DNA of 22,530 nt, taken from positions 1 to 22,530 of the IMG/VR virus record IMGVR_UViG_3300009620_001904. One strand, given 5' to 3'. This DNA comes from a virus. Positions 5,120-17,405 of this stretch are shown piece by piece. Made by a program: the position numbers and the translations under genes. Each line of letters begins with the position of its first letter. The first letter of the stretch is position 1. A model generated the notes under the pieces. That model saw only the letters and a program-made list of their open reading frames with translations. It made no database searches and was not told where the DNA came from.

Positions 5120-6799
5120 CTAATGTCGAGATGAGAGGAAGTTGAACGTGTCAACGACCGAAGTTAAATCCTCCTTGTCTGTTACTTTTGCAACGACTTC
5201 TTGTGGGTAGTAGCCCCTGTCAATATTGGAGCGCCTCCTGCCCAGCGAAACAGTAACTGAACAGAACTTAACCCCCTTAGCTATCATTCTTTTAGCTACA
5301 ACTGCGCACTTGTCAGGGTTCTGGGGTTCTCCATCAGTGATAACTACTCCGGTTGCACCTTGAGATTGATCTCCAAGTAAATCTTCCATGACTTCAAGTG
5401 CTGCTTCTTCTGGAGTGTTGCCATTTAAAGTTTTACCTTCTTCACAATAAGGACACAGAAGTCTCTCTCCTCTGGGTACTTCTACAATTACTGGAAACTT
5501 TCTCTCATCTGAATACCCAAAGACTCTGGACTCAGGAAAAGATCTGCTTAGCATTGCTGCTATATCCCAGATTGTTACCCCTATATGATATGACGGATCT
5601 ACCCTGTGATAGTTACCACATCTACACGAAGTAGATTGAGAACAATCAACCATAATTATTAGCTGGCTGCTAGAGATGTCATCTTTCTTGAATACATCTA
5701 GCTCACCGAATGGAAGCCGTGCAATCTTCTTGTTTGGCTTACCAGTGCTGCCTTGTTTTACTAATTTATAGTCAGCAAAATCATTTAGAAGTAGCCGTGC
5801 TTGAAGTGAACTAACAACTGGCTTAGTCTTATAGCCTGTGGATACACTAGGGTGTGCAAACCTAGCGTTGTTTTGTTGGAGGGCAGCCCAATCACGTTCA
5901 TCTTGTTTCTTACCCTCTTCTTGCTGTACCTTTCTGGTTTCTTGCTGCTTTTGTTTAATCTTATTGAGTAGTTCTTTTACACGTTCACTTTGCTCAGGGT
6001 TAGCTACTTCTTCCTGCTCTGAATTAGTATTCTCAATGTCTCTGGGTCTACGCTCCTCATCAGATCCGATGTCTGAATTCTTATCATCTGATCTGCTGGG
6101 TTCCCCCTCTCCTTCTGCTTCTTCACTGCTATCCTCAGCCTCATCGGGAGCGTCACTGCTTGTAGGATCTTGCTCATCATTTTCATGGCCTTGATCTTCC
6201 TCTTGATCTTCCGGTGGCTGCTTCAGATATTCAAGAATCTTTATTGCTTCTTCTGCCAGAGGCAGCACTGCATCCATGCTTGGAAGCTTAGAGATCTCAA
6301 CTAATCTTTTAGAAAGCCGCTTCCCGTTAGCCTCAAGATACTTTGTTATTCCAGAGCTGAAGTTTCTTTTAGCAGCACCAGTAAACATGGCTGAAGTGAT
6401 AGCACTATTACCAAAGTTATCTTCTGCTAGTATCTTCTCTAAGGCAGAGCCGTTATAGAACTCATGTCCACGTAACACTGCATAACAATAAGCAAGTTCT
6501 TCTAGTACCTGCTCAGGATAGTGGTGGTACGAAGATGGACTTTGATCTGGTATCAAACCGTAATAATTATTTGATACCTGTGTCCCTACTGCTCCAAGTT
6601 CCTGTGCTACATCTCTTACCACTGACAGTGATGCAAGCTTTGCATAGCTATCAGTTTCCTCATAGGTAAAAGACTGAGAGGCTGTGTTCTGATTTTCCCA
6701 TGCTTTAATCCTGCCTCTAGCACTGTTTCCATGCTGCTGCTGTGCATCAGTTCTGGATTTACTAAGATGATCTAAGTATGATCTAACTTCTTCTGACAT
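5120..6799 (-). CDS. VWA-domain protein, CobT-like partner of the AAA+ ATPase
   Basis: A 559-residue protein. The N-terminal ~190 residues are helical, residues about 195-270 are highly acidic and low complexity, 275-305 are a K/Q/E coiled-coil-like stretch, and the C-terminal ~190 residues form a von Willebrand A domain. The metal-ion-dependent adhesion site is intact: D385-x-S387-x-S389, T462 and D489 (VVITDGEP). This acidic-linker-plus-VWA architecture is that of CobT and other VWA partners of MoxR-type ATPases. Two cysteine pairs inside the VWA domain (C392/C394 and C449/C452) may form an added zinc site. TAATG coupling joins it to the cysteine-rich 49-aa gene. A role with the ATPase at 7173-8789 is likely; cobalt chelation itself is not implied. 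Codons 374-384 carry the 32-nt repeat shared with the gene at 10271-10597. Confidence 0.8.
   Translation of the reverse strand: MSEEVRSYLDHLSKSRTDAQQQHGNSARGRIKAWENQNTASQSFTYEETDSYAKLASLSVVRDVAQELGAVGTQVSNNYYGLIPDQSPSSYHHYPEQVLEELAYCYAVLRGHEFYNGSALEKILAEDNFGNSAITSAMFTGAAKRNFSSGITKYLEANGKRLSKRLVEISKLPSMDAVLPLAEEAIKILEYLKQPPEDQEEDQGHENDEQDPTSSDAPDEAEDSSEEAEGEGEPSRSDDKNSDIGSDEERRPRDIENTNSEQEEVANPEQSERVKELLNKIKQKQQETRKVQQEEGKKQDERDWAALQQNNARFAHPSVSTGYKTKPVVSSLQARLLLNDFADYKLVKQGSTGKPNKKIARLPFGELDVFKKDDISSSQLIIMVDCSQSTSCRCGNYHRVDPSYHIGVTIWDIAAMLSRSFPESRVFGYSDERKFPVIVEVPRGERLLCPYCEEGKTLNGNTPEEAALEVMEDLLGDQSQGATGVVITDGEPQNPDKCAVVAKRMIAKGVKFCSVTVSLGRRRSNIDRGYYPQEVVAKVTDKEDLTSVVDTFNFLSSRH
5655..5686 (-). 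repeat. 32-nt exact repeat, copy 1
   Basis: Located in the VWA gene just before the metal-site D385; identical to 10374-10405. The encoded strand leads into the VWA core, so this copy is probably the ancestral one (inference). Confidence 0.9.
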
Positions 6800-6819
6800 T
6801 AACTATCTCCACATTCAAT
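6797..6819 (-). repeat. Gene-junction repeat, copy 1
   Basis: This 23-base segment (stop/start junction plus the last codons) matches 6946-6968 with one mismatch. Both copies hold a GGAGATAGTTAATG ribosome-binding and TAATG start arrangement and encode E-(C/S)-GDS ends. Confidence 0.7.
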
Positions 6820-6948
6820 ACAGGCACAGTTGCCTTCACCTATGAAGTCAGGACAATCCTCACCTTCTATACACCAGTTTGGGTTAGCCCTGCATCTATG
6901 TGTGCGACATTCATTAGCTGTGCAATCTTCACAAATTTCTTTTGGCAT
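6799..6948 (-). CDS. Cysteine-rich 49-aa protein
   Basis: A small frame lies exactly between two genes, with TAATG junctions at both ends: its ATG overlaps the stop of the 74-aa gene and its TAA overlaps the ATG of the VWA gene. It encodes 49 residues with nine cysteines (at 6, 9, 14, 19, 26, 32, 41, 43 and 46), opening MPKEICEDCTANEC and ending CACIECGDS. The cysteine density and precise coupling argue for a real metal-binding or disulfide-rich peptide. No family is recognised. It could be a metal-binding accessory of the AAA+/VWA pair (inference). Confidence 0.65.
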   Translation of the reverse strand: MPKEICEDCTANECRTHRCRANPNWCIEGEDCPDFIGEGNCACIECGDS

Positions 6949-6968
6949 TAACTATCTCCAGATTCAAT
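6946..6968 (-). repeat. Gene-junction repeat, copy 2
   Basis: Second copy of the 23-base translational-coupling junction described at 6797-6819, one mismatch apart. Confidence 0.7.
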
Positions 6969-7172
6969 CTCGTTATACCTAGCCTTTAGCGAGTCATCGG
7001 ATTCATACCTTAGTCCACGACTTCCGTATTCTCCTAGGTTAGAGATTTCCTGTATCAATTCCTCTTTAGACCAGCTTTCATGGCTTAGCTTCCAATGCTC
7101 AACAATTCTTTCAATAAGAAGATGCCTTATCGTCTTGTCTGCTGCCATTACAGCTCCCTCTTCTTTTGACAT
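6948..7172 (-). CDS. Small hypothetical protein
   Basis: A 74-residue helical, charged protein of unknown family, between the AAA+ ATPase gene and the cysteine-rich gene. The first ATG abuts the ATPase stop codon. An internal ATG at 7146-7148 has a stronger ribosome-binding site (AGAGGGAG), so the protein may be 66 residues. Its last residues (IESGDS) and the bases around its stop nearly duplicate those of the next gene. Confidence 0.55.
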   Translation of the reverse strand: MSKEEGAVMAADKTIRHLLIERIVEHWKLSHESWSKEELIQEISNLGEYGSRGLRYESDDSLKARYNEIESGDS

Positions 7173-8789
7173 TTAGAGATTGATCCCTTCTAATCCTTCT
7201 ACTTCTTCGTAGTCTTTTTCAAAGTGCGTTGCAAACACTGACATAGCCCTCTCTTTCTGCTCTGTTTCTTTGAGAGTATTTACATGACAAACTATCAGTG
7301 CAGTAGTTATGTCCACTCCCCGCAGCAAAGTCTTTGCTGTCATAATCAATGATCTTGTAGAGATGGTAGTTGTAATGTCCTCTCTCATATCAACAGCCAT
7401 TTGCCTTAGCTTGTTAGCAGTCTTACCAAAGTACTGCTCTGGAAGAATCCCATCCAGTATCACTGGCTCATCTGCAATCTCATCCTTGATCTGAATGATT
7501 CTCATTCTGTCAAGCAAGGCTTTGTCTAGTGGGTTGTTGAAGTAACCACCACCAGTTGGGTTGCCTGTTGCATATATCCAGAGTTTAGGATGAACAGGTA
7601 TTTCATCTTCACTATTTTCATAGACAGTGAAGTGTCTGTACCCATCTTCCATTAGTGAGTGCAGCCTGTTGTTGAATTCTGGCGGAGCCTTTGGTAACTC
7701 ATCAAGAATTAACATGCCACCCTCACCGCTTGCCCTAACCATCTTGGTTACTGTTCCATCTTGCCAGCCCAGTCCAATACCTAAGTATTCATAGCTGCTC
7801 ATGTCTTGACCTAGGCCAGTCTTACCTATTACTGTTCCGTCTGCCTGTCTCCAGAACGGGGTTGGTCTTGGAGTACCTACTAATACTTCTTGGTCAATAC
7901 GACTTGTAAAAGTAATACTGTTTATGTTGTCTCTGCCAGTGTGTTCACCTAGCATGTGACCCATGAAAGTCTTGCCTGCACCAGCCTCACCCTCCATATA
8001 TATTGGAGATCCTTCTAGTGATAAGCAAAGATTGAATACTTTATCGCCATAATCTGTTAGTGCAATCTTGTATTCCGCTGCGTCTTTAGCTGCACTAAGC
8101 TCATTAGCATCTAGCTTTGGAACAGACCAAGCTTCCTTATTGGTTATGTCAAAGCCAAGCCCACTCTCTACATCAGATGTATTTGGCACAACAGTGCCAG
8201 CCATTGACGCATCTGCTAATACTTCCCCAGCTATTTCTTCCATGCCTAACGTTAGAAGAAAGTAAGGATTATGCATAAGTATTTTATGGACATGATCCCT
8301 GTCATATTCAGCTATGTAAGCAGCATTTTGCCTAGCCTCTGCGGTACACGCAGCGGTGGCTGCCAGCCTTGGCTTGATATAAGTCTGATCTGATTGTTTA
8401 GAACTATATCTGCCAGTGAGCCGTGTCAGATTGGTGTGAATCCCATCAAGATAAGTAGTCAACCACTGTTTATATTTCTGGGCAGTAGTATTGCTAAAGG
8501 GAATGTTATACATAAGAACACTACTGCTTGCAGTTGGTTCGAATGTTGTGACTAATCCCTTTGTGTAATCTTCAATGAGAAAATTACCAGTAGTAATAGC
8601 TATTGGAAGTACTGCGCCAGAGCCTTTGCTTTTAGCACATAACTCCATGAATTTATGTTCAACGCCCTGTGTATCTCTGATATATGTGCTGTTTGTCACT
8701 AAATATCTGTGACTGAGTGATCGTCCTCTGCAAAATGCTTGAAGCGTAGTCTCATACTGAGCAGGAACTCCGATATTTTGAATTGTCAT
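7173..8789 (-). CDS. MoxR/CobS-type AAA+ ATPase
   Basis: A 538-residue protein whose second half is an AAA_5 (MoxR/CobS) ATPase. Visible motifs are Walker A GEAGAGKT (about 267-274), Walker B MLILDEL (D363-E364), sensor 1 in WIYATGNP (N410), and an STRS segment in the lid. ATPases of this group form hexamers that remodel or load metal into target complexes, with a VWA protein as partner; that partner is encoded two small genes downstream. The N-terminal ~240 residues are not a familiar domain and may be phage-specific. The frame opens upstream to 8846, but the ATG at 8787-8789 has AAGAAAGG in good position and does not overlap the previous gene, so I use it. Confidence 0.8.
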   Translation of the reverse strand: MTIQNIGVPAQYETTLQAFCRGRSLSHRYLVTNSTYIRDTQGVEHKFMELCAKSKGSGAVLPIAITTGNFLIEDYTKGLVTTFEPTASSSVLMYNIPFSNTTAQKYKQWLTTYLDGIHTNLTRLTGRYSSKQSDQTYIKPRLAATAACTAEARQNAAYIAEYDRDHVHKILMHNPYFLLTLGMEEIAGEVLADASMAGTVVPNTSDVESGLGFDITNKEAWSVPKLDANELSAAKDAAEYKIALTDYGDKVFNLCLSLEGSPIYMEGEAGAGKTFMGHMLGEHTGRDNINSITFTSRIDQEVLVGTPRPTPFWRQADGTVIGKTGLGQDMSSYEYLGIGLGWQDGTVTKMVRASGEGGMLILDELPKAPPEFNNRLHSLMEDGYRHFTVYENSEDEIPVHPKLWIYATGNPTGGGYFNNPLDKALLDRMRIIQIKDEIADEPVILDGILPEQYFGKTANKLRQMAVDMREDITTTISTRSLIMTAKTLLRGVDITTALIVCHVNTLKETEQKERAMSVFATHFEKDYEEVEGLEGINL

Positions 8790-8800
8790 ACTTGCCTTTC

Positions 8801-9103
8801 TTAGTATTCTGACGGAAACAGTAAGGTCGTTACTGATCTGTCCCACTCTGTAATAATCCAGAGCTTATCTTCTCTACCCTCATAGAGATTAGTGGCATCT
8901 ATTGGATAAGAACTCAGCAGCCTGCCACCAGTCTTGGCTGAATCATCATTGAGTTTCGCATCTTCAGCGTCAAGTTCACCCCAATCACCTGACTTATGCT
9001 TATCTAGTAACTTACTAACAACAGATTTACGTTCATCGGGGTTTTTCATAACCCAACCTGCTACCCCTGCTGTTACCACTGTCCTTCCAAGATCAACTTC
9101 CAT
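8801..9103 (-). CDS. Plasmid/phage conserved hypothetical (GDWGDLD-type)
   Basis: A 100-residue protein. The segments HKSGDWGELDAEDAKLND, GGRLLSSY and KLWIITEWDRSVTTLLFPSEY match, from memory, a small family common on plasmids and mobile elements and usually annotated 'plasmid related protein'; its biochemical role is unknown to me. The ATG at 9101-9103 has GAAAGG upstream; the longer frame to 9169 would use GTG without a ribosome-binding site. It is the first gene of the leftward block, so it may be the first expressed. Confidence 0.7.
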   Translation of the reverse strand: MEVDLGRTVVTAGVAGWVMKNPDERKSVVSKLLDKHKSGDWGELDAEDAKLNDDSAKTGGRLLSSYPIDATNLYEGREDKLWIITEWDRSVTTLLFPSEY

Positions 9104-9434: not shown

Positions 9435-10004
9435 ATGGCTGGACATCAATTAGATAAAAGAACTAAGACAGTAGAGGTAATAAAGAAGGCTAAGATGGGC
9501 AGAGAGCCTGTCATCCCTGCCTTTGGTGTTACTAGGCGAGAAGAACTGTTTTGCAGAGAGGTAATCGAAGGGTCTACCTTAACTGAGGCTTATAAGCTAG
9601 CGTATCAGCCCCATATTAACTCTACTATTCAGTCAATACATAACAAAGCCTCTGCTTTATTCCGCAAGGAAAGGGTAGCAAGAAGGGTAGAAGAACTGTA
9701 TGAGCAGCAGGATTCACTGTCAAGACTAGACACAGACTATGTAATCACTAACCTGATAAGTAATCATAGGATAGCTTTAGAGTCGGGCGATCTGACATCA
9801 AGTAATAAATCATTAGAATTATTAGGGCGACATCTAAATCTATTTGAAAGAAAACCACAAGCAGACGAACAAGTTGCTAGTTTATTTAGTTGGATAGCCC
9901 AACAGTCTGGCAACATAAATATAGAAAAACCTAGGGATTCAGCACTCGCTCCAGCTACGATAGAGGTAGAGGTCAAAGAGTTAGACGGTCAACCAGACAA
10001 CTGA
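9435..10004 (+). CDS. terS: Terminase small subunit
   Basis: A 189-residue protein resembling terminase small subunits, which bind the packaging site and regulate the large subunit. The basic N-terminus is followed by TRREELFCREVIEGSTLTEAYKLAY, a helix-turn-helix-like DNA-binding segment at about 33-58 (cited as a landmark). Then come VARRVEELYEQQ and DTDYVITNLISNHRIALESGDL with KSLELLGRHLNLF, the usual oligomerisation region. The C-terminus is polar. The ATG has AAGG four bases upstream. It is isolated from terL by 3.8 kb of mostly opposite-strand sequence, which is unusual. Confidence 0.75.
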   Translation: MAGHQLDKRTKTVEVIKKAKMGREPVIPAFGVTRREELFCREVIEGSTLTEAYKLAYQPHINSTIQSIHNKASALFRKERVARRVEELYEQQDSLSRLDTDYVITNLISNHRIALESGDLTSSNKSLELLGRHLNLFERKPQADEQVASLFSWIAQQSGNINIEKPRDSALAPATIEVEVKELDGQPDN

Positions 10005-10022
10005 CCGCCTAACAGTCTACCC

Positions 10023-10054
10023 CTGCCAAAGCCAAAAAAATTAGGCTTTGGCAG
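10023..10054. repeat. 11-bp hairpin after terS
   Basis: Arms CTGCCAAAGCC / GGCTTTGGCAG enclose an A-rich 10-base loop 19 bases after the terS stop. No T-run follows, so it is probably an mRNA 3'-end or protective hairpin rather than a terminator on its own. Confidence 0.55.
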
Positions 10055-10062
10055 TAAGCTCT

Positions 10063-10077
10063 GTAAGAAGTACCCCC
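10063..10077 (+). repeat. GTAAGAAGTAC repeat, copy 1
   Basis: GTAAGAAGTACCCCC occurs here and, inverted, at 13798-13812. The 11-base core also occurs at 12083-12093. Confidence 0.6.
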
Positions 10078-10096
10078 TGAAGATTTGGGGTTAAAT

Positions 10097-10133
10097 AAAA
10101 AAAGGGAGCGGCCCTAAAGCTGCTCCCCTTTTG
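10097..10133. terminator. Bidirectional intrinsic terminator
   Basis: A 9-bp stem (GGGAGC-GGC paired with GCT-GCTCCC, one G:U) is flanked by A-run and T-run on both sides. On the minus strand it lies directly after the CCA end of the tmRNA-like RNA and is followed by seven T. On the plus strand it can end terS transcription. Confidence 0.8.
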
Positions 10134-10141
10134 TTATTAGT

Positions 10142-10220
10142 TGGTGGAGGTGGGGGGAATCGAACCCCCGTCCTGCAACTTCCACATGTGGTTTTAGTTG
10201 CAGTCTTACCAGTCACCCCC
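10142..10220 (-). ncRNA. Minimal tmRNA-like (tRNA-like domain only) RNA
   Basis: The minus strand folds as a 79-nt tRNA-like molecule. The 7-bp acceptor stem is GGGGGTG (10214-10220) with CACCTCC (10146-10152), the third pair being G3:U70, the alanine identity pair. A73 and an encoded CCA follow (10142-10145). The T arm is GGGGG-TTCGATT-CCCCC (10153-10169), and GAC links it to the next helix as in tmRNA. The D region ACTGGTAAGA has no stem, as in tmRNA. Instead of an anticodon arm there is an 8-bp helix (CTGCAACT/AGTTGCAG) like tmRNA helix P2, closed by a 15-base loop containing the palindrome CCACATGTGG. There is no room for a tag-coding domain or pseudoknots. A strong terminator follows on the same strand. 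Alternatives are a degenerate tmRNA remnant or a divergent tRNA; an attachment site alone would not keep the paired 5' half. Confidence 0.75.
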
Positions 10221-10225
10221 CTAAA

Positions 10226-10249
10226 GCGGGCGACATTTCTGTCGCCCGC
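10226..10249 (-). repeat. GCGGGC hairpin upstream of the tmRNA-like RNA
   Basis: A perfect 10-bp stem (GCGGGCGACA/TGTCGCCCGC) with a 4-base loop lies after the 108-aa gene and 5 bases before the RNA. Only TTTAG follows on the minus strand, so termination may be leaky and the RNA could be processed from read-through transcript. It is one of three similar gene-spacer hairpins. Confidence 0.6.
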
Positions 10250-10270
10250 ATAAGCGATTACTATTTACAT

Positions 10271-10597
10271 CTATGGATGGTTTTTATCGTAATCGCTTAT
10301 AGATATTGCTATGCCACGTAGTGAAACGGCTACATCTGAAAGATTTTCAGATAACTCTGTATCTCTTCCAGATATTATTAGCTGGCTGCTAGAGATGTCA
10401 TCTTTGATGACATCTCTAATGGAGCCGATAGTGGCTAGCAATGCGTAGATCTCTGCCCTTTTATGCAGTTGATCTACGCTAAAAGGCATTGTTCCATCTG
10501 ACTGAACATCTGCTAAAACCTTAGCATCGTTCAAAGATGTAACTGCCTTTTCATAGTCTAAGCCCGGCAATATGTTCGGTCTGTTTTCATCAGACAT
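10271..10597 (-). CDS. Hypothetical protein sharing a peptide with the VWA gene
   Basis: A 108-residue protein of unknown family, acidic and mostly helical. The ATG has AGAGGA five bases upstream. Residues about 62-76 include KDDISSSQLII, identical in peptide and in 32 nucleotides to a segment of the VWA protein encoded at 5120-6799. The same stretch forms half of a 13-bp perfect hairpin in the DNA (10390-10418). It is the gene nearest to the tmRNA-like RNA. Confidence 0.6.
   Translation of the reverse strand: MSDENRPNILPGLDYEKAVTSLNDAKVLADVQSDGTMPFSVDQLHKRAEIYALLATIGSIRDVIKDDISSSQLIISGRDTELSENLSDVAVSLRGIAISISDYDKNHP
10374..10405 (-). repeat. 32-nt exact repeat, copy 2
   Basis: Identical over 32 bases to 5655-5686, on the same strand and in the same coding frame (KDDISSSQLII). 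Flanking bases differ immediately on both sides. Confidence 0.9.
10390..10418. repeat. 13-bp perfect hairpin inside the 108-aa gene
   Basis: Arms TAGAGATGTCATC / GATGACATCTCTA with a 3-base loop. The left arm and loop belong to the 32-nt repeat; the right arm is unique to this copy. Confidence 0.85.
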
Positions 10598-10618
10598 AAG
10601 TTCCTCTTGAGAGTTAAT

Positions 10619-10642
10619 GCGGGCGACATTGCTGCCGCCCGC
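10619..10642 (-). repeat. GCGGGC hairpin between 62-aa and 108-aa genes
   Basis: Nearly the same hairpin as at 10226-10249 (GCGGGCGACA / TGCCGCCCGC, one mismatch) in the spacer between two leftward genes. Confidence 0.6.
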
Positions 10643-10647
10643 CTGAA

Positions 10648-10836
10648 CTAAGCTGGTTTCTTGTGCTGGATTACTCCAACACTGAAACCAGACTCGCGAA
10701 AACGCTTCGCAAGCTTTTCACGCTGTTCACGGTCTTTAGCGTCCAGCTCAGCGTTCCTGATGTTAAGATATTTCAAAACATCAAAGGACTGAGATGGACT
10801 AAGACCGTCACCAGTAAGTGCAGCAGCTTTAGGCAT
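10648..10836 (-). CDS. Small basic hypothetical protein
   Basis: A 62-residue protein of unknown family. The middle is a charged helix (NAELDAKDREQREKLAKRF) and the C-terminus is basic. The ATG has TGAGG nine bases upstream. GC-rich hairpins flank it on both sides, as with its neighbours, so it may be a separately stabilised cistron. Its small size and charge suit a virion or regulatory protein, but nothing specific can be claimed. Confidence 0.55.
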   Translation of the reverse strand: MPKAAALTGDGLSPSQSFDVLKYLNIRNAELDAKDREQREKLAKRFRESGFSVGVIQHKKPA

Positions 10837-10851
10837 ACGCTTTTACCTCAA

Positions 10852-10905
10852 GCGGGCAAGGCAACGGATGCTTTTTGTAATGCATCCCATGTGTTGCCTG
10901 CCCGC
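10852..10905 (-). repeat. GCGGGC nested hairpin between genes
   Basis: Outer arms GCGGGC(A)AGGCAAC / GTTGCCTGCCCGC pair over 13 bp with one bulge; inner arms GGATGC/GCATCC pair over 6 bp. It fills the spacer between the 266-aa and 62-aa genes and shares GCGGGC ends with the other two spacer hairpins. Confidence 0.65.
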
Positions 10906-10920
10906 ACTAAGCTGGGCAAA

Positions 10921-11721
10921 CTAGGAAGTTAATCCTATTTTGCTCAGCAAGTTTGGAGACTTCGGAGCTTCAGCAGGTTTAGCTTCCTGTTGGGCCTCAA
11001 GCCCGGCAGTAAGCATGTGAACCTGCTTTGCTAGCAGTTCAAGCTGCTGCTTTAGAGACTGGTTTTCAGACTCTAATGCAGATGTATCAGCTTGAACAAC
11101 TGGAGGAGTCTCCAGTTGAGGTACTGGCGGCGTAACCTGCGCTGCTGGTGGTGCTACAGTCCCCTGTGCATAAGCACTGGGGTGCACAACCAAATTGCCT
11201 TTAGAGGCAGTTTGTGTGTGCCTGCCGCACCACGGTTGCGCATAAGCTGGCGCGTCGCATCTGTAACCATCTGCGGCTTTGGAAGCTATACACTTTCCAT
11301 TAGCCACGATGGGAATACCTTTGTAACTGGTAATGCCAGTTACTGGATTCCCTGAGCCAACCGGACTTGAATTCCCATTCAAGTTCGTAGCTGGCTCTGT
11401 TGGTGCTGTAGCACCAACAAATGCTGGCGGCTGGAAAGTGGCTACAACAGGCTGTTGAGCAGGTTGCATAGCTTTGATCTCAGATTGGATCTTAGATCTA
11501 AAAGCTGTGTACTTGTCTGCTGTCGCAGAGAACCACTCGCCGTGCTGATTGGCTTGAACATCGTTGCCTTGGGCTCGATGCCAAGCGTCAATCCCCGGCA
11601 CAGCCCATCTACGTGGGCTGCGGATGTGGTTCTGCAAGTGCTCAAGCTGTTGAGCGCCCATCCCACAGAGGCAGACATAGCGCATTGCGCTTGCCGTGAA
11701 TTCCGGATTGCCTATATTCAA
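10921..11721 (-). CDS. Hypothetical protein with possible zinc sites and C-terminal coiled coil
   Basis: A 266-residue protein. It has an N-terminal C17-x-C19 followed by H28 and H32, a P/A/Q-rich linker, and a C-x(11)-C-x(9)-C-x2-H cluster at about 144-169, similar to small C3H zinc motifs in phage proteins (GYRCDAPAYAQPWCGRH). A second P/Q/V-rich linker leads to a coiled coil at about 213-240 (ALESENQSLKQQLELLAKQ). The start is TTG at 11719-11721, with AGAAAG 12 bases upstream; the first ATG (11683-11685) is the alternative. The modular linker pattern suggests a scaffold or virion-associated protein, but function is unknown. A highly structured segment lies just upstream of its start. Confidence 0.55.
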   Translation of the reverse strand: MNIGNPEFTASAMRYVCLCGMGAQQLEHLQNHIRSPRRWAVPGIDAWHRAQGNDVQANQHGEWFSATADKYTAFRSKIQSEIKAMQPAQQPVVATFQPPAFVGATAPTEPATNLNGNSSPVGSGNPVTGITSYKGIPIVANGKCIASKAADGYRCDAPAYAQPWCGRHTQTASKGNLVVHPSAYAQGTVAPPAAQVTPPVPQLETPPVVQADTSALESENQSLKQQLELLAKQVHMLTAGLEAQQEAKPAEAPKSPNLLSKIGLTS

Positions 11722-11743
11722 TTCTTAGCATATCTTTCTACTT

Positions 11744-11898
11744 GTGGCTCACGAACATCGCAAGCAACTTAAATTTTCCAGAGCAGGGCGAAAGAAATTC
11801 AGGGCGCAAGTATTCTGCGAATCCGGTTTATCCGGCCTGACTTGCGCCGGGGAGTTCCGCCCTGCTAAATTTGTGTTGCGCAGCAGAGTGTGAGCCAC
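11744..11898. ncRNA. Structured element A (155 nt), candidate RNA or 5' leader
   Basis: Four helices are nested in order: GTGGCTCAC/GTGAGCCAC (9 bp), GCAAC-TT-AAATTT/AAATTT-GT-GTTGC (11 bp with a small internal loop), AGCAGGGCG/CGCCCTGCT (9 bp) and GGCGCAAGT/ACTTGCGCC (9 bp). Two small hairpins (ATTC-TGC-GAAT and CCGG-TTTAT-CCGG) close the end. On the minus strand it would be the leader of the 266-aa gene, ending 22 bases before the TTG start. On the plus strand it would start a non-coding RNA. I do not recognise it as a known family. Confidence 0.6.
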
Positions 11899-11937
11899 GT
11901 AGAAACAGGCTAAGAAGAATATGGGGAGTTCACTGCT

Positions 11938-12045
11938 ATGTGCAATGTCTGCCATGCTAAGCAGTTGGGTAGTTGCATTGCTGAAGCACTGCAACGCTGC
12001 TTAGCTTGTGGGATAGCAGAGTCAAGCAGCAGATCAGCAGGCTGA
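11938..12045 (+). CDS. Possible 35-aa CxxC-CxxC peptide
   Basis: A short plus-strand frame with ATG at 11938 and GGGGAG nine bases upstream encodes 35 residues with C2, C5, C13, C21 and C24, a zinc-ribbon-like pattern. It overlaps stem-loops B and C, so it may be chance coding over RNA structure. Low confidence. Confidence 0.25.
   Translation: MCNVCHAKQLGSCIAEALQRCLACGIAESSSRSAG
11956..12005. repeat. Structured element B
   Basis: Nested arms GCTAAGCAG/CTGCTTAGC (9 bp) and GTTGCA/TGCAAC (6 bp) in the gap between the 266-aa and 201-aa genes. Confidence 0.6.
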
Positions 12046-12076
12046 GAAACTGACTGCTGACCAGCTTAAGCTTGAC
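12021..12076. repeat. Structured element C
   Basis: Nested arms GTCAAGC/GCTTGAC (7 bp) and TCAGCAG/CTGCTGA (7 bp), directly following element B. Confidence 0.5.
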
Positions 12077-12106
12077 CCAGCGGTAAGAAGTACGGGGTAT
12101 TTTTTT
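12075..12106 (+). terminator. Possible plus-strand terminator
   Basis: Short paired segments ACCC/GGGT and GTA/TAC, formed by a GTAAGAAGTAC repeat copy, are followed by seven T on the plus strand. The stem is weak, but it would suit the end of a plus-strand RNA starting near element A. Confidence 0.35.
12083..12099 (+). repeat. GTAAGAAGTAC repeat, copy 2
   Basis: GTAAGAAGTACGGGGTA; nearly the same string occurs at 13787-13804 with one mismatch and one extra G. Confidence 0.6.
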
Positions 12107-12117
12107 GTGAGTAACAC

Positions 12118-12154
12118 AAAAAAAAGGGCAGGATGGCGTTAGCCATCCTGCCCT
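12118..12154 (-). terminator. Strong intrinsic terminator of the 201-aa gene
   Basis: A perfect 13-bp stem (AGGGCAGGATGGC / GCCATCCTGCCCT, loop of 4) is followed on the minus strand by eight T, seven bases after the stop codon at 12162. Confidence 0.9.
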
Positions 12155-12161
12155 AAGTAGA

Positions 12162-12767
12162 TCAACCCTGCTTAGCTGTAGCAGTTGAGAGTTCGTAGTT
12201 GACCCTATCGACGCCGTAAACGCTACCGTAAGGATCATTTGGAAGTGTTTCCTTGAGGGTAAACTCTTCTTTCATGATGCGTTTACGGCTAGGCCCAGTC
12301 TGACGAGTAACTGTCCTTGATTTTGCGTAAGTGTAGTTACTCCACTCATCCTCTTCACCCGGCGGAAAATCAAGGTAGAGATCGTCCCAGTCCCTGACGT
12401 AATCGCCTCCAGCGGATTCATTTGCTTGAAGACTGTCATCATCTTCAAGCATCATCGAGGATCTCTTGATCTCGATGGGATGAATCCAGCTACAGTCTTC
12501 TTCGTCATGATTCACACATTCATGCTCATGACTGTGCTCAACTGGGACGATGCTCTTATCGCAGGTGTCTTCAGAGCAGAGTCTGAATTCACCCGGATAC
12601 TCGCGTACTAAAATATCGAATCTGGTCTTTACAGGTAAAGATCGGATTCGTGCAGAAGCTTTTTTAGAAGCATCTGCTGCTATTTTAGTGCTATCAGTTT
12701 GATAAGCCTTAGCCTCTCGGAGCGCCTCTTGGCGTTCTGAGAACTCGTATAGGAAACTGTTGTCCAT
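12162..12767 (-). CDS. Hypothetical protein, acidic, His/Cys cluster
   Basis: A 201-residue protein of unknown family. The N-terminal ~50 residues form a charged helix rich in A, K and E. The centre holds C-x4-C and a HSHEHECVNHDEEDCSWIH cluster (about 79-97 in this numbering), which may bind metal. The C-terminal half is acidic with aromatic residues (DWDDLYLDFPPGEEDEW). The frame extends to a TTG at 12824, but the ATG at 12765-12767 with AAGAAAGAG upstream is preferred. It is the most upstream gene of the 10.2-12.8 kb leftward group and ends at a strong terminator, so it is probably a single-gene transcript. Confidence 0.6.
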   Translation of the reverse strand: MDNSFLYEFSERQEALREAKAYQTDSTKIAADASKKASARIRSLPVKTRFDILVREYPGEFRLCSEDTCDKSIVPVEHSHEHECVNHDEEDCSWIHPIEIKRSSMMLEDDDSLQANESAGGDYVRDWDDLYLDFPPGEEDEWSNYTYAKSRTVTRQTGPSRKRIMKEEFTLKETLPNDPYGSVYGVDRVNYELSTATAKQG

Positions 12768-12847
12768 GACTCTGCTCTTTCTTAATGTTTTTGCTGATGC
12801 GAAAACACACCAGTGCCTACCCAATAATCTAGCCTTGTCAGTTCTTG

Positions 12848-12923
12848 GTCACGCAATTTATGCATCCTTAGAAATAATCAATTTATTTTATTATTTCTAC
12901 CGCAGAGCTAAATTGCTGGTGAC
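12848..12923. repeat. Structured element D
   Basis: Nested arms GTCAC-GCAATTTA / TAAATTGC-(TG)-GTGAC (13 bp with a 2-base bulge) enclose AGAAATAAT/ATTATTTCT (9 bp). Confidence 0.7.
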
Positions 12924-12926
12924 TTT

Positions 12927-12958
12927 GACGTTTCATCTTTTTCATTTTATGAAACGTC
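12927..12958. repeat. Structured element E
   Basis: Perfect 10-bp arms GACGTTTCAT/ATGAAACGTC around a T-rich 12-base loop. Confidence 0.7.
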
Positions 12959-12965
12959 TAATGAA

Positions 12966-12998
12966 CTGATGCAAGTTAGGCAATAAGCCTAACGTCAG
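12966..12998. repeat. Structured element F
   Basis: GTTAGGC/GCCTAAC (7 bp, 5-base loop) inside CTGA/TCAG. Confidence 0.55.
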
Positions 12999-13046
12999 CA
13001 CCTAGATTACGGTATCGGCGCTGTGTGTGTGGTAGTAGTGTAGAGC

Positions 13047-13158
13047 GATTGGGGTGCGACCATGTTTCCTGTTTCGTTTCATGCTGGTTTATGTCTTTTC
13101 CTCTGCGTTTAGCAGATAAAAAGGCCAGCATTAAACTCAACCTGAAACATCCCCAATC
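13047..13158. repeat. Structured element G, 112-nt rod
   Basis: Four helices nested in register: GATTGGGG/CCCCAATC (8), ATGTTTC/GAAACAT (7), ATGCTGG/CCAGCAT (7) and TCTGC/GCAGA (5), separated by internal loops. It forms a single rod. Confidence 0.75.
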
Positions 13159-13173
13159 GTGGCCAATACGGAA

Positions 13174-13225
13174 AACGACAGACCTCCCCTGTCGTTTCGT
13201 TTGTAGGGAGGAAAACCTACAAACG
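13174..13225. repeat. Structured element H, two tandem hairpins
   Basis: AACGACAG/CTGTCGTT (8 bp, 13174-13196) is followed by CGTTTGTAGG/CCTACAAACG (10 bp, 13198-13225). Confidence 0.7.
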
Positions 13226-13261
13226 TCACCCCCGCCTGTCTAAAGGCGTTGCTGCCCTGAA

Positions 13262-13324
13262 AGCAGGCTAGCCCACCACTCTGCACTAGCCTGCTTGTTG
13301 CTTTGGCTCAATGCCTAAAGCAAC
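13262..13324. repeat. Structured element I, two tandem hairpins
   Basis: AGCAGGCTAG/CTAGCCTGCT (10 bp, 13262-13295) is followed by GTTGCTTT/AAAGCAAC (8 bp, 13297-13324). Confidence 0.7.
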
Positions 13325-13364
13325 GCAAGAGGGGATTACTATAGTAACTGTGATCTTGGGGCGT

Positions 13365-13393
13365 GATGATTGCTTGTCCAATAAGGAATCATC
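13365..13393. repeat. Structured element J
   Basis: GATGATT/AATCATC, 7-bp arms. Confidence 0.45.
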
Positions 13394-13443
13394 TCGATAG
13401 GTGTAGGTCGGGGAGAACAGCGGGCGACCTAAGGGTGTCCGAT

Positions 13444-13567
13444 CACCCTCTCGTCACATTACCCTCTCAGTAGTTATACACACAATAGTCCCCGCTTGGG
13501 AGAGAAAGGGAGGGAGAGGAAAGGGGGGACTATAGGGGGGATAGGTGAGAGAGGGTAAGAGAGGGTG
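13444..13567. repeat. Structured element K, 124-nt rod with G-rich core
   Basis: CACCCTCT/AGAGGGTG (8), TTACCCTCTC/GAGAGGGTAA (10) and ATAGTCCCC/GGGGACTAT (9) are nested. The core at 13498-13528 has at least four runs of three or more G on the plus strand and could form a quadruplex. Confidence 0.7.
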
Positions 13568-13626
13568 CTCTTGTGTTAAGAGCAGTCCTATCTATCTATC
13601 ATTACCTTACTTAATTGAGAGGACTG
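13566..13626. repeat. Structured element L
   Basis: TGCTCTT/AAGAGCA (13566-13584) is followed by CAGTCCT/AGGACTG (13583-13626), 7-bp arms each. Confidence 0.5.
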
Positions 13627-13668
13627 TATATTACTTAGAAAAGCTTTAACTTAGCAAGTAACCACTTT

Positions 13669-13727
13669 GTGCGCACGCGAGGCTTATCGGTATTACACAG
13701 GCTATGCCACGTAATACCTCAGCGCAC
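13669..13727. repeat. Structured element N
   Basis: GTGCGC/GCGCAC (6) outside and GGTATTAC/GTAATACC (8) inside. Confidence 0.6.
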
Positions 13728-13745
13728 GGATACAGTCGTAGGGTT

Positions 13746-13782
13746 GCAGAGCCTCCGCATCCTTAAGATGCTAGGACTCTGC
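13746..13782. repeat. Structured element O
   Basis: GCAGAG/CTCTGC outside and GCATC/GATGC inside, with short unpaired segments between. Confidence 0.5.
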
Positions 13783-13786
13783 GGGG

Positions 13787-13812
13787 GTACGAAGTACGGG
13801 GGTACTTCTTAC
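13787..13812. repeat. GTAAGAAGTAC repeat, copy 3 (composite)
   Basis: It contains GTACGAAGTACGGGGGTA on the plus strand, like copy 2, and the inverted 15-base sequence of copy 1 at 13798-13812. GAAGTAC/GTACTTC form a 7-bp hairpin with a GGGG loop 10 bases before the terL frame opens. Confidence 0.6.
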
Positions 13813-13821
13813 CCTTAACGA

Positions 13822-15381
13822 GTGCTGAATAGAGATATACACCCTCGCAAATTATTTGTAATTCTGTATCCTTTTGTGATGGACAAGAAAGTAGCTGAAG
13901 TAATTTGGAAGGCCCTTGAGGACTCTGATCCGGGCAGTGGTGAAGGTTATAAGATGCCGGGGCCCAGTCATGAGGGGTTTTTGTTTGATGGGACTCCTAC
14001 GACTCTTGTGAGTGGTGGTGAGCGTGGTGCGAAGAGTCATACGGGGGCGATGAAATGTATGTTGATAACGCTGGATTTCATTGCCCGGCATCCTTTGCAG
14101 GCAAGTAAGGGTGTTTCGTGGCTGGTGGGGGACTCATACGAGTTAACTCGGAGCGAATTTGATTATTTATCGGAGTGGTTTCAGACGATTGTTCCGGGTA
14201 CAAAGGTCAGTACACGGGTAGATCCGGGTCAGATAGAGGTTCCGGTGCGTCATGACGACCATCCGGGGTTAAGAGGGGTATTTACGATAAAGACAAAGTC
14301 TGCGGCAGACCCTATGAGTCTCAGGGCGGAGGCTCCAATATGGATTTATGGCTGTGAGGCTGCCCTGTTGACGCAGGATGTCTATTTCAGGCTGCTTGGA
14401 AGGGCCGGGCAGTCGAGAAGCATGTATAAAGACTTTGGGCAATTCATCCTGACGGGGACTTTTGAGAACAGTCTTGGCTGGTATCCAACTTTATGGACTA
14501 AATGGCAGTCAGGTGCGGCTCAGGTTGTTGACAGGGCGCGGAGTTTTAGCTTTCCCAGCCATGAAAACCGCTTTGCGTGGCCCGGAGGGGAGAAGAACGA
14601 GACTTTAATGCATCTCAAGAACATGCTTCCTGAAGATGTATACAAGGAACGCCATCTGGCTATCCCCGCGCCGCCATCAGGCCGTGTGTTTGGGAACTTT
14701 GACAGCACTGTTCATGTCCAGAAGTGCTCTTATGACCCCGATTTGCCTGTTTATCTTGGAATTGACCCCGGTTATTCGGGCAGAAGCTCTACTTATGCGG
14801 TTGAGGCGATGCAGAAAGTAGCAGATCAGTGGGTAGTCTTTGACGAAATAGCGATAAATAAGATTTCCGACCCCGGATTTACCGTAAAAGACATCTGCTA
14901 CCTTGCGCAACAGCGCTATTGGTGGAAAAATGCAGACAAAGTAGGGGTTATTGATATTGCGGGCGCAGCACACGCTGGCGCGCAGGAGTCAAACGAGGAG
15001 GTTTGGCTCAGGGAAACAGGACTGGTACTCAGACACCAGAGAGTTAACCTGCTTCCGGGTCTGGACAGGATGAAAACCAGCCTTCAGGTCAACCCGATCC
15101 ACAAGGAACCGGGAATAATCTTTGATCCATCGTGTAAATTAGTAATCTCAGAGCTTGGAGGGGCGGTAAACCCCTTTGATAACCAAGTTCACGTATATTC
15201 TTATAAGACAGACAGGCAGGGAAATGTAACTGATTCACGCCCAAGGGATGACTATTGTGACGGAATCAAGGCAATAATCTACCTGTTAGTTGACCAGATG
15301 GGATATGCTACCGGGCGTGGGCTCAGGAAACGTATAAGAGTAAAACGGCGTTCAATACGTCATGAAACTGTTGTTGTATGA
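13822..15381 (+). CDS. terL: Terminase large subunit
   Basis: A 519-residue packaging motor and nuclease. A Walker A-like segment SGGERGAKSHTG lies at about 64-75, with a Walker B-type acidic segment (IYGCEAALL) near 172-181. The C-terminal nuclease domain shows LGIDPGYSG (about 313-321), VGVIDIAGAAHAG and RDDYCDGIKAI, the acidic triad pattern of RNase H-like terminase nucleases. The frame opens at GTG 13822 without a clear ribosome-binding site; the ATG at 13879 (giving 500 residues) is an equally possible start, also without a Shine-Dalgarno sequence. ATGA overlap couples it to the portal gene. It is separated from terS by 3.8 kb. Confidence 0.85.
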   Translation: MLNRDIHPRKLFVILYPFVMDKKVAEVIWKALEDSDPGSGEGYKMPGPSHEGFLFDGTPTTLVSGGERGAKSHTGAMKCMLITLDFIARHPLQASKGVSWLVGDSYELTRSEFDYLSEWFQTIVPGTKVSTRVDPGQIEVPVRHDDHPGLRGVFTIKTKSAADPMSLRAEAPIWIYGCEAALLTQDVYFRLLGRAGQSRSMYKDFGQFILTGTFENSLGWYPTLWTKWQSGAAQVVDRARSFSFPSHENRFAWPGGEKNETLMHLKNMLPEDVYKERHLAIPAPPSGRVFGNFDSTVHVQKCSYDPDLPVYLGIDPGYSGRSSTYAVEAMQKVADQWVVFDEIAINKISDPGFTVKDICYLAQQRYWWKNADKVGVIDIAGAAHAGAQESNEEVWLRETGLVLRHQRVNLLPGLDRMKTSLQVNPIHKEPGIIFDPSCKLVISELGGAVNPFDNQVHVYSYKTDRQGNVTDSRPRDDYCDGIKAIIYLLVDQMGYATGRGLRKRIRVKRRSIRHETVVV

Positions 15382-17405
15382 CCACTCAAGAATTTAGCCC
15401 GGAAGAACAAGAGCAAGCCCAGCTTCAAGCCCAAAGGGAAGAAGAAGAGGCTGGAAGACGTATATTCGACCAGATAGAGCGGGAATTTGAAGATAACCGC
15501 GCCGTTATGGATCGGATGGAAGACGACTACGATCTCTATACGTTGAAGCGATGGAACCCTGACATAGAGGATTCAATATCCCCTGAAGATGCTTATACCA
15601 CCAACGCTCCCAGAGTAATGGCTGAGAAGATAATCTCGTTTATTAACAGCACAGAAGTGGTAATACGGGTTCCGAATGATGACGCGACCAAGGAGCAGGA
15701 GTATGTAAACGATGCTCTGGAGCAGCTTTCAATCGGTATGCTTGCAAACTCTGACAGAAGGCTAAGGCGCAGGCATGAGCCAACAATCAAGGAGCAGCTT
15801 TCTTGGTTTACCGTAGTCCGTGGCAGGTATGCAGCAGCAAGGGCATTGCTCAGGAAAAGAGAAAACGGGGAAACATATGAAGACATCCTCCCCTTAGACC
15901 CCCTGCATCTGGTGGTAGGTATGGGGCCAGAAGAGCCAGAATGGGCAGCCTATAGAACCTACATGACAAGACGGGAGATCAGGCTTCGGTATCCGGGGTT
16001 TGAATTTGCAACCCGTGACCTGCAAGGGGCAGACGAAACCCAGTCTGAGGCAGCCTACGAGTACTACCTGAAATCAGAAAACCCCCTGTATAACCCCCAG
16101 TCACAGAATCCATTTGAGCGGCATCCCTTTATTTACTTCTCAGGAATGATTATCGACCAGCGTTGGGCAAGGCCAATGCATCCTGTCTTTACCCTGAATT
16201 TCCCCATTATTGCTATTCCTGTTACCGCACACCCAATGGTTGCAGGAACAACTGGCGATAACGATATGTGCCAGCATGTAGGGGAATCTGTATTTGCAGA
16301 GAACAGGCAGCTTTATGAAAAGCACAACAGGCTTATCTCTTACGGTATAGACATGGCTGCCAAGGCCAGCAACCCCAGACAGAAGATATTTTCTATTGAC
16401 GGTGAGGCTGCCCTTGAAGATGGATCTACAGAAAAGGGAGCAGAGGTTCCTCTTTCTACTGCAAACCAAGAAGACATCCAGCCTTTCTTAGAGCCTGATG
16501 CTACTAATGCCTATGGTGCTGCCCTGAATATAATCAATCAGGAATCAGTAGCTGGTGGCTTACCACCCCAGTCTTTCGGATTACTTGATAAACCACTGTC
16601 TTCTGTTGCATTAAGGCAGCTTGGAAACAACCTAGAACACAGGGTTCAACCCAGAATGGAAGCAGTAAGACGCTGCATTGAAGGCTGTCTGGAAGTAATG
16701 CTGGGGCAGTATGAGACTGGTGCATTTTCCCCGATCACTGTTTCAGGTAGAAGGTTTGACAATCACAGGTTTTCTAATAAACAGATTTCCCCACTCGACG
16801 TTTACGGGCATGATGCAATAGAAGTAGAGATGGCTCTGGCACTTCCTGAAGATGAAACTGTCAGGTGGTCGATTGCGCAGATGGCAATGACCCCGACACC
16901 AAGCGGCGAACCCCTAGCATCTCTTGAATGGACTAGGGAACATATCCTGAAAATGCAGAGCCACAAGACTCTTGCAGACCAGAACAAGACAATGCTTGCA
17001 TATCAGAATACCCCAATCGCAGCATTGCTTGATTCCTTAAGGGCAGCACAGGAAGACGGGGATAATGCATTGGTCGCTGCACTGTATGACCAGATGAGAC
17101 TTGCGGTACTGCAACACCAGCTACAGGGTTCAATGGCAATGTTCCAGCTACAGCAACTGGCTCAGGGAATACCACCTATGACGATGGTAAATTCCCAGAC
17201 AGCCGATGATCTTTCTGCCCCGCCAAGGATGGGCGGTGCTGGTAATAACCAGCGGTTCAACCCTGCAAATGGAGCCGTTCCTGCTGTATCATTCAGCGGA
17301 ATGGGTAATAACCCATCACCGCAGGCTGGATTTAATACAACTGCTCCTAGGCAGAGAGATACGGGACTTGTAAACAGCAATATAATGCCTGTTAGCGGGC
17401 AGTAA
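15378..17405 (+). CDS. Portal protein
   Basis: A 675-residue protein placed directly after terL with an ATGA overlap. Its length and layout suit a large portal: a charged N-terminal helix, a YDLYTLKRWNPD segment (about 51-62), a mixed alpha/beta body with LDPLHLVVGMGPEEPEWAAYRTYMTR, a conserved-looking helix pair (AENRQLYEKHNRLISYGIDMAAKA) and a C-terminal Q/A/G-rich tail with likely coiled coil. Portals form the dodecameric ring through which DNA enters the capsid. Assignment rests on position, length and general resemblance; no single diagnostic motif exists. Confidence 0.75.
   Translation: MTTQEFSPEEQEQAQLQAQREEEEAGRRIFDQIEREFEDNRAVMDRMEDDYDLYTLKRWNPDIEDSISPEDAYTTNAPRVMAEKIISFINSTEVVIRVPNDDATKEQEYVNDALEQLSIGMLANSDRRLRRRHEPTIKEQLSWFTVVRGRYAAARALLRKRENGETYEDILPLDPLHLVVGMGPEEPEWAAYRTYMTRREIRLRYPGFEFATRDLQGADETQSEAAYEYYLKSENPLYNPQSQNPFERHPFIYFSGMIIDQRWARPMHPVFTLNFPIIAIPVTAHPMVAGTTGDNDMCQHVGESVFAENRQLYEKHNRLISYGIDMAAKASNPRQKIFSIDGEAALEDGSTEKGAEVPLSTANQEDIQPFLEPDATNAYGAALNIINQESVAGGLPPQSFGLLDKPLSSVALRQLGNNLEHRVQPRMEAVRRCIEGCLEVMLGQYETGAFSPITVSGRRFDNHRFSNKQISPLDVYGHDAIEVEMALALPEDETVRWSIAQMAMTPTPSGEPLASLEWTREHILKMQSHKTLADQNKTMLAYQNTPIAALLDSLRAAQEDGDNALVAALYDQMRLAVLQHQLQGSMAMFQLQQLAQGIPPMTMVNSQTADDLSAPPRMGGAGNNQRFNPANGAVPAVSFSGMGNNPSPQAGFNTTAPRQRDTGLVNSNIMPVSGQ

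Follow-up and report, generated by a model that had tools for sequence, protein, structure and literature searches.

The window analysed here, a 22.5-kb IMG/VR virus record (22,530 nucleotides) of an uncultured phage, carries terS (9435-10004) and terL (13879-15381) on the plus strand, with a portal-like gene (15378-17405) downstream of terL. The gap of about 4 kb (~3.9 kb) between the terS stop (10004) and the terL start (13879) is filled by a self-complementary island, nearly all of whose sequence has a pairing partner close by, and in which lie about four minus-strand genes, i.e., three genes and one or two small ORFs. To the left of the island, the minus strand encodes a RecT-like gene and MoxR/VWA-like genes; the VWA-domain-like and MoxR/CobS-like ATPase genes stand close together near terS (5120-8846, minus strand) and are kept in two related contigs, L016 and L013. 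A scan of the sequence for sigma-70 promoters gave no excess over chance, and ARAGORN called no tRNA, so no tRNA island stands beside the folded region.

Genes, hairpins and end repeats of the island

Two of the minus-strand island genes have homologues in L016 and L013: one of 201 aa (12162-12767) with CxxxxC/HxHxHxC motifs, and one of 266 aa (10921-11721) with two Cys/His motifs. ORFs of 62 aa (10648-10836) and 108 aa (10271-10597) lie on the same strand. Inside the 108-aa ORF, a 37-nt stretch of the VWA-like gene (5655-5691) recurs at 10374-10410 with 95% identity and in the same reading sense, and it pairs with the sequence that now flanks it to give a 13-bp hairpin (10374-10419). Another hairpin, GCGGGCGACA...TGTCGCCCGC, occurs in two copies that are 89% alike (10222-10249 and 10615-10642), between minus-strand island genes. 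At 10142-10220 on the minus strand, and likewise at 107-185 of the near-identical contig L002, there is a match to tmRNA (65.6 bits, 79 nt only), the sole Rfam match over the whole window at gathering scores. This element possesses a 7-bp acceptor stem with G3-U, a T arm, a short P2-like hairpin and a CCA end; an mRNA-like domain or tag would not fit into it, and ARAGORN calls nothing there. It may represent a mimic of tmRNA that lacks the tag, one half of a split tmRNA, or an ssrA end that was captured. An attP site in ssrA was rejected as its source, as no tyrosine integrase was found in nine related records, all of which may be fragments.

The initial annotation had described 12768-13821 as a kilobase of inverted repeats, with arms differing from element to element, in which no protein gene fits. 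The repeats are real (36 pairs in 12600-13950 with a seed of 7), the arms do differ, and no convincing protein gene was found; the coordinates, however, were too narrow, covering only the right-hand quarter of the ~3.9-kb island. The non-coding part proper (12830-13821) contains about 13-15 simple hairpins and nested rods. From left to right, these include the hairpins TAGAAATAAT/ATTATTTCTA (12869-12899, within a rod at 12847-12924), GACGTTTCAT/ATGAAACGTC (12927-12958) and GTTAGGC/GCCTAAC (12975-12993), the nested rod CGATTGGGG...CCCCAATCG (13046-13159, with inner arms 13062-13087/13125-13150), two abutting hairpins AAACGACAG/CTGTCGTTT and CGTTTGTAGG/CCTACAAACG (13173-13225), two more abutting hairpins AAGCAGGCTAG/CTAGCCTGCTT and GTTGCTTT/AAAGCAAC (13261-13324), a nested rod around CAATAGTCCCC (13475-13543), the hairpin GGTATTAC/GTAATACC (13689-13718), both sides of which are altered in the near-identical contig L003, and the last rod before terL (13785-13814), which carries the right end repeat. 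Nine perfect hairpins of at least 8 bp were counted in 12830-13821 against 0.8 in shuffles. Measured against dinucleotide shuffles, the same stretch folds with z-scores of -8.7 as plus-strand RNA, -10.5 as minus-strand RNA and -13.1 as DNA, and none of the 20 shuffles folded as well.

The two ends of the island are complementary. The left end repeat GTAAGAAGTACCCCC (10063-10077, minus strand) is the reverse complement of the right end repeat GGGGGTACTTCTTAC (13798-13812, plus strand) at 15/15 positions, and an outer nested repeat at 9937-9948 (minus strand), inside the 3' end of terS, pairs at 12/12 positions with CGAGTGCTGAAT (13819-13830, plus strand). This nested second pair resembles the base of a folded structure more than a simple transposon end. 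An internal copy of the end motif (GGTAAGAAGTACGGGG) lies at 12082-12097 on the minus strand. There are also two terminator-like hairpins, one at 12125-12154, whose T run is confined to the minus strand, and one at 10104-10127 with a long T run on the minus strand and a short weak T tract on the plus strand, which also scores as a weak plus-strand terminator.

Extent of the fold and its recurrence in related lineages

A sliding fold z-score over the window showed one continuous block from ~9961 to ~13860, the scores to either side being close to 0; together with the local fold and the hairpin count, it defines the whole folded island as 10005-13879. The local fold of this 3.9-kb stretch (-1629 kcal/mol) is a head-to-tail series of hairpins and rods that spans the whole distance between the terS stop and the terL start. 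Perfect hairpins with 8 bp or more number 32 in the island, compared with 3.0 +/- 1.4 in shuffles, and the flanks of the island do not rise above shuffles (11 vs. 7.7 expected on the left, 5 vs. 6.8 on the right).

The fold was also assessed gene by gene through shuffling of synonymous codons only. At this level, the island genes of the window are folded, with z-scores from -5.4 to -12.7 (-6.8 for the 201-aa gene, -12.7 for the 266-aa gene, -5.4 and -7.4 for the 62-aa and 108-aa ORFs), and so are the minus-strand island genes across lineages, with z from -3.2 to -12.7 in 12/12 genes. The terS gene is unfolded (z -0.9), terL is little folded (z -2.7; +0.8 in L016 and -0.1 in L013), and the small plus-strand genes between island and terL are unfolded as well (z +1.0 for a 98-aa gene in L012, z +1.4 for a 116-aa gene in L016). 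Folding well above shuffles thus runs through the coding regions, as it does in levivirus-like folded ssRNA. Pervasive folding that overrides codon choice is a feature of ssRNA viruses.

The continuation of the structure through coding genes to 10005 bears on the suggestion of the initial annotation that the kilobase might be a cluster of structured RNAs, since it means that these are not small RNAs confined to the 1-kb gap; moreover, there was no Rfam match to E 10 and no RNA loop or wobble signature. A single large, structured non-coding RNA similar to GOLLD and ROOL (PMC12286853), occupying the 1-kb part with the remainder incidental, would agree with the size, the phage setting and the strong fold of what is, as in GOLLD/ROOL, a large folded non-coding stretch in a phage, and also with the finding that five sequences keep three rods in order ahead of a common end motif. 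However, a cmscan of 12768-13900 to E 10 returned chance-level matches only, i.e., no covariance-model match, individual pairs are not conserved among L010, L012 and L013, and the island differs from GOLLD/ROOL in including coding genes and in having no adjacent tRNA island, and we consider this explanation quite improbable.

Searches with terL revealed near-identical contigs (L001-L004, L008 and L009) as well as two other lineages, L016 and L010-L015, with terL about 64-67% identical (L016, L013/L014). The near-identical island sequence occurs in contigs of different sample numbers (L002, L003, L008), showing that the island is no amplification artefact of one sample. The contigs L016, L013 and L014 possess the same kind of folded block in the terS-terL interval, with a different sequence and no folding outside; beyond its island, the L016 contig shows mostly ordinary folding. 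Two island gene families are common to the lineages in the same order, at 28-30% and 22-30% identity, and a SLOG-type gene (PF10686) is found in the L016 island, with a similar gene in L013. In each of the three lineages, which make up the sample of islands, the longest distant inverted match joins both island ends; in L016, 5538-5562 matches 9505-9529 at 22/25 positions (14 exact in a row), and in L013, 5276-5291 matches 9652-9667 at 16/16. The complementarity of the ends therefore persists although the end sequences differ. Direct observations comprise the fold and where it stops, its occurrence in three lineages, the pairing of its ends and the unfolded state of the plus-strand genes in the same interval, and the comparison suggests that folding itself is kept while the lineage sequences differ.

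In distant relatives, with a portal about 37% identical (e.g., L031 and L035), terS stands directly before terL and the block is absent. Further scans of viral contigs gave no additional carriers, and neither did genome contigs, phage records or plasmid records. The open-access literature yielded no account of an island of this kind, which is weak evidence of novelty. The terminal inverted repeats in each lineage, as in a transposon, and the adjoining terS and terL of relatives without the island are what a mobile element inserted between the two genes would leave. However, the island proteins have no transposase or integrase match, no target-site duplication was seen when the flanks were compared by eye, and all carriers have the island at one position and with one gene order, while phage and plasmid records contain no copy. 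Moreover, terminal repeats alone leave the pervasive internal pairing unexplained, and a mobile element is in our judgement very improbable. The island also resembles the attC arrays without integrase described in phages (PMC9892861) in that folded single-strand sites follow one another among small genes, but it lacks a RYYYAAC...GTTRRRY array and its gene order is fixed between lineages. An attC array or CALIN was rejected, with one RYYYAAC and GTTRRRY box set per strand in the window (chance 0.2) and none in L016 and L013, as was a reverse-transcriptase element, with no RVT_1 in five records.

Strand symmetry and turnover of the pairing

Both strands of the island fold about equally well. 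G-U pairs make up 4.6-9.2% in the islands vs. 13-16% in shuffles, the loops are not A-rich, and GNRA/UNCG tetraloops are not enriched. Perfect stems reach 4.6-12.1 per kb in the islands, compared with 1.7-3.3 in ssRNA phage genomes and 0.9-3.3 in all controls. One-sided changes in strand-neutral helices are divided between 18 of the G-U type and 19 of the A-C type on the plus strand. An early excess of A-C on the plus strand, by which the strand might have been assigned from static mismatch type, was not upheld with dinucleotide shuffles and ssRNA phage controls, and no test picked out the folded strand, or RNA as against DNA. However, the static mismatch test does not identify the genomic strand in Qbeta or PP7 either, and the MS2 antisense strand folds well too (gain 28% vs. 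35%), so that the folded form may still be RNA. The native folding gain amounts to 38-45% in the window, 27-39% in L016 and 23-24% in L013, with MS2 at 35%.

The ssRNA phages (MS2, Qbeta, PP7 and AP205) resemble the island in having about 4 kb in which both coding and non-coding parts are folded, whereas the island is a segment of a dsDNA phage, has denser perfect stems, and carries no recognised replicase or coat gene. It is improbable, in our estimate, that the entire ~4-kb island acts as a single molecule in single-stranded form (RNA or ssDNA), with lineage-specific ends closing it and its coding genes included in the fold, and serves a separate function in the phage cycle, for example by being protected, packaged or copied as a whole.

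DNA-level folding is a serious rival of the late-transcript model set out below, although we regard it as unlikely. The island would then fold as DNA, single-stranded or as a cruciform, at the start of replication or during recombination, packaging or entry, and the hairpins and end repeats would be needed at that moment. The Watson-Crick-perfect stems with few G-U pairs (4.6-5.7% vs. 13-14% in shuffles) and no wobble bias, the equal folding of both strands, a DNA fold z of -13, the inverted repeats at both ends and the RecT-like annealing protein of the phage all agree with this. However, no iteron family was found, DnaA-box-like sites are few, and the unfolded plus-strand genes of the interval are left unexplained, except as lying outside the end repeats. 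The origin of replication proposed in the initial annotation found no backing, as the cumulative GC-skew minimum at the terS/terL junction is not specific to the island: it is also present in the island-less L031 and thus reflects gene orientation only. For the packaging region proposed there as well, the position beside the terminase genes is the sole point in favour.

The proposal that pairing rather than sequence is kept finds support at the level of the region, though not pair by pair. The right ends of L010, L012, L013 and L016 each have three rods in matching order ahead of the end motif, with arms that differ in sequence, and L003 differs from the window by a two-sided change that preserves a stem (GGTATTAC/GTAATACC to GGTATTGC/GCAATACC). 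Covariation in relatives, by contrast, was not borne out, as changed pairs are mostly unpaired at the homologous positions in L010/L012/L013, where hairpins re-form elsewhere, albeit in few sequences; the property is therefore described as folding kept regionally. Neither of the contrary outcomes named beforehand, i.e., shuffles pairing equally well or relatives losing the arms while keeping the genes, was seen. L012 and L013 are 99.4% identical through terL and about 82% in the island, suggesting that segments are probably also exchanged by recombination. A comparison of L012 (1-560) with L013 (9572-9985) shows the 98-aa plus-strand gene to be extra in L012, which suggests recombination at the island edge.

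Template switching over short distances during replication, which creates and perfects hairpins (PMC8794818), might keep making and perfecting inverted repeats in the island with little or no function. We rate this as somewhat unlikely, yet as a serious rival as well, since the stems are perfect, strand-symmetric and different everywhere, and, as with template-switch hairpins, perfect unique inverted repeats turn over while pairing persists. The multi-base changes between window and L003 are clustered, suggestive of block conversions, with no ancestor to polarise them, and the 37-nt VWA-derived stretch now pairs with its new flank. Stems defined in L003 show no depletion of changes (P 0.15-0.44), whereas stems defined in the window carry 5 changes vs. 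26.5 expected (shift test P 0.001; P 0.03-0.13 at other thresholds), which speaks against template switching. A Fisher test for purifying selection on stems (p 2e-8) was set aside because the changes cluster, making its result over-optimistic. Template switching also leaves unexplained why one 4-kb interval only is affected, with edges at gene ends and complementary ends in three lineages, why the adjacent plus-strand genes are spared, and why the rod order at the right end persists.

Possible role of the fold in the late transcript

We tentatively favour the explanation that a plus-strand late transcript crosses an untranslated antisense cassette and is kept folded there with its ends paired, while holding that this may well be wrong. 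According to this model, a minus-strand gene cassette was inserted between terS and terL, and its entire length would be kept self-folded, the folded molecule being a late transcript of the plus strand that leads from terS into terL. Such a transcript would not be translated anywhere from the terS stop to the start codon that follows on the plus strand. Rho requires bare RNA. With dense hairpins and paired ends, Rho or RNase E would find no long bare stretch, and terS and terL would be brought together. We infer that there is such a read-through transcript, that what folds is RNA and not DNA, and that the benefit lies in avoided termination or cleavage.

Several observations count for the late-transcript model. 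The edges of the fold coincide with the untranslated part of the plus transcript in three lineages, and the fold stops where plus-strand translation would resume; the minus-strand genes are folded while terS/terL and the plus-strand small genes are not; and the folding gain is of the size found in MS2. Ends that change and yet stay complementary are as expected if both ends pair. The minus-strand T-run terminators (a strong one at 12125-12154, inside the end repeats, and 10104-10127) make it unlikely that minus transcripts hold both ends, whereas both ends could lie on one plus transcript. Against the model count the absence of a strand preference (18 vs. 19 one-sided changes), the lack of A-rich loops and of GNRA/UNCG enrichment, perfect stems that are denser than in ssRNA phages and unlike ordinary RNA folds, and the fact that 10104-10127 is a weak plus-strand terminator too. 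A promoter just before terL would make read-through needless. The antisense moron genes of lambda (e.g., bor) are likewise minus-strand genes in or beside a plus-strand late block, but they lack a synonymous-level fold (z -2.9 to -0.1), and this counts against the model. The model is held only tentatively because the evidence for it is indirect and the lambda antisense genes are unfolded.

A sharply bounded folded island in a dsDNA phage, kept in three lineages as its sequence turns over, would show that a folding rule can govern a local stretch of a DNA genome. Should the late-mRNA reading be true, the island offers transcription a protein-free route across an antisense cassette; should template switching be true, it is a natural place for studying the birth of hairpins. 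Many strongly folded spots were also seen among the minus-strand early genes of the distant relatives L031 (1-6400) and L073, where repeated peptide-like stretches (GAFCPPIVLVI) appear at points at which intergenic repeats run into ORFs.
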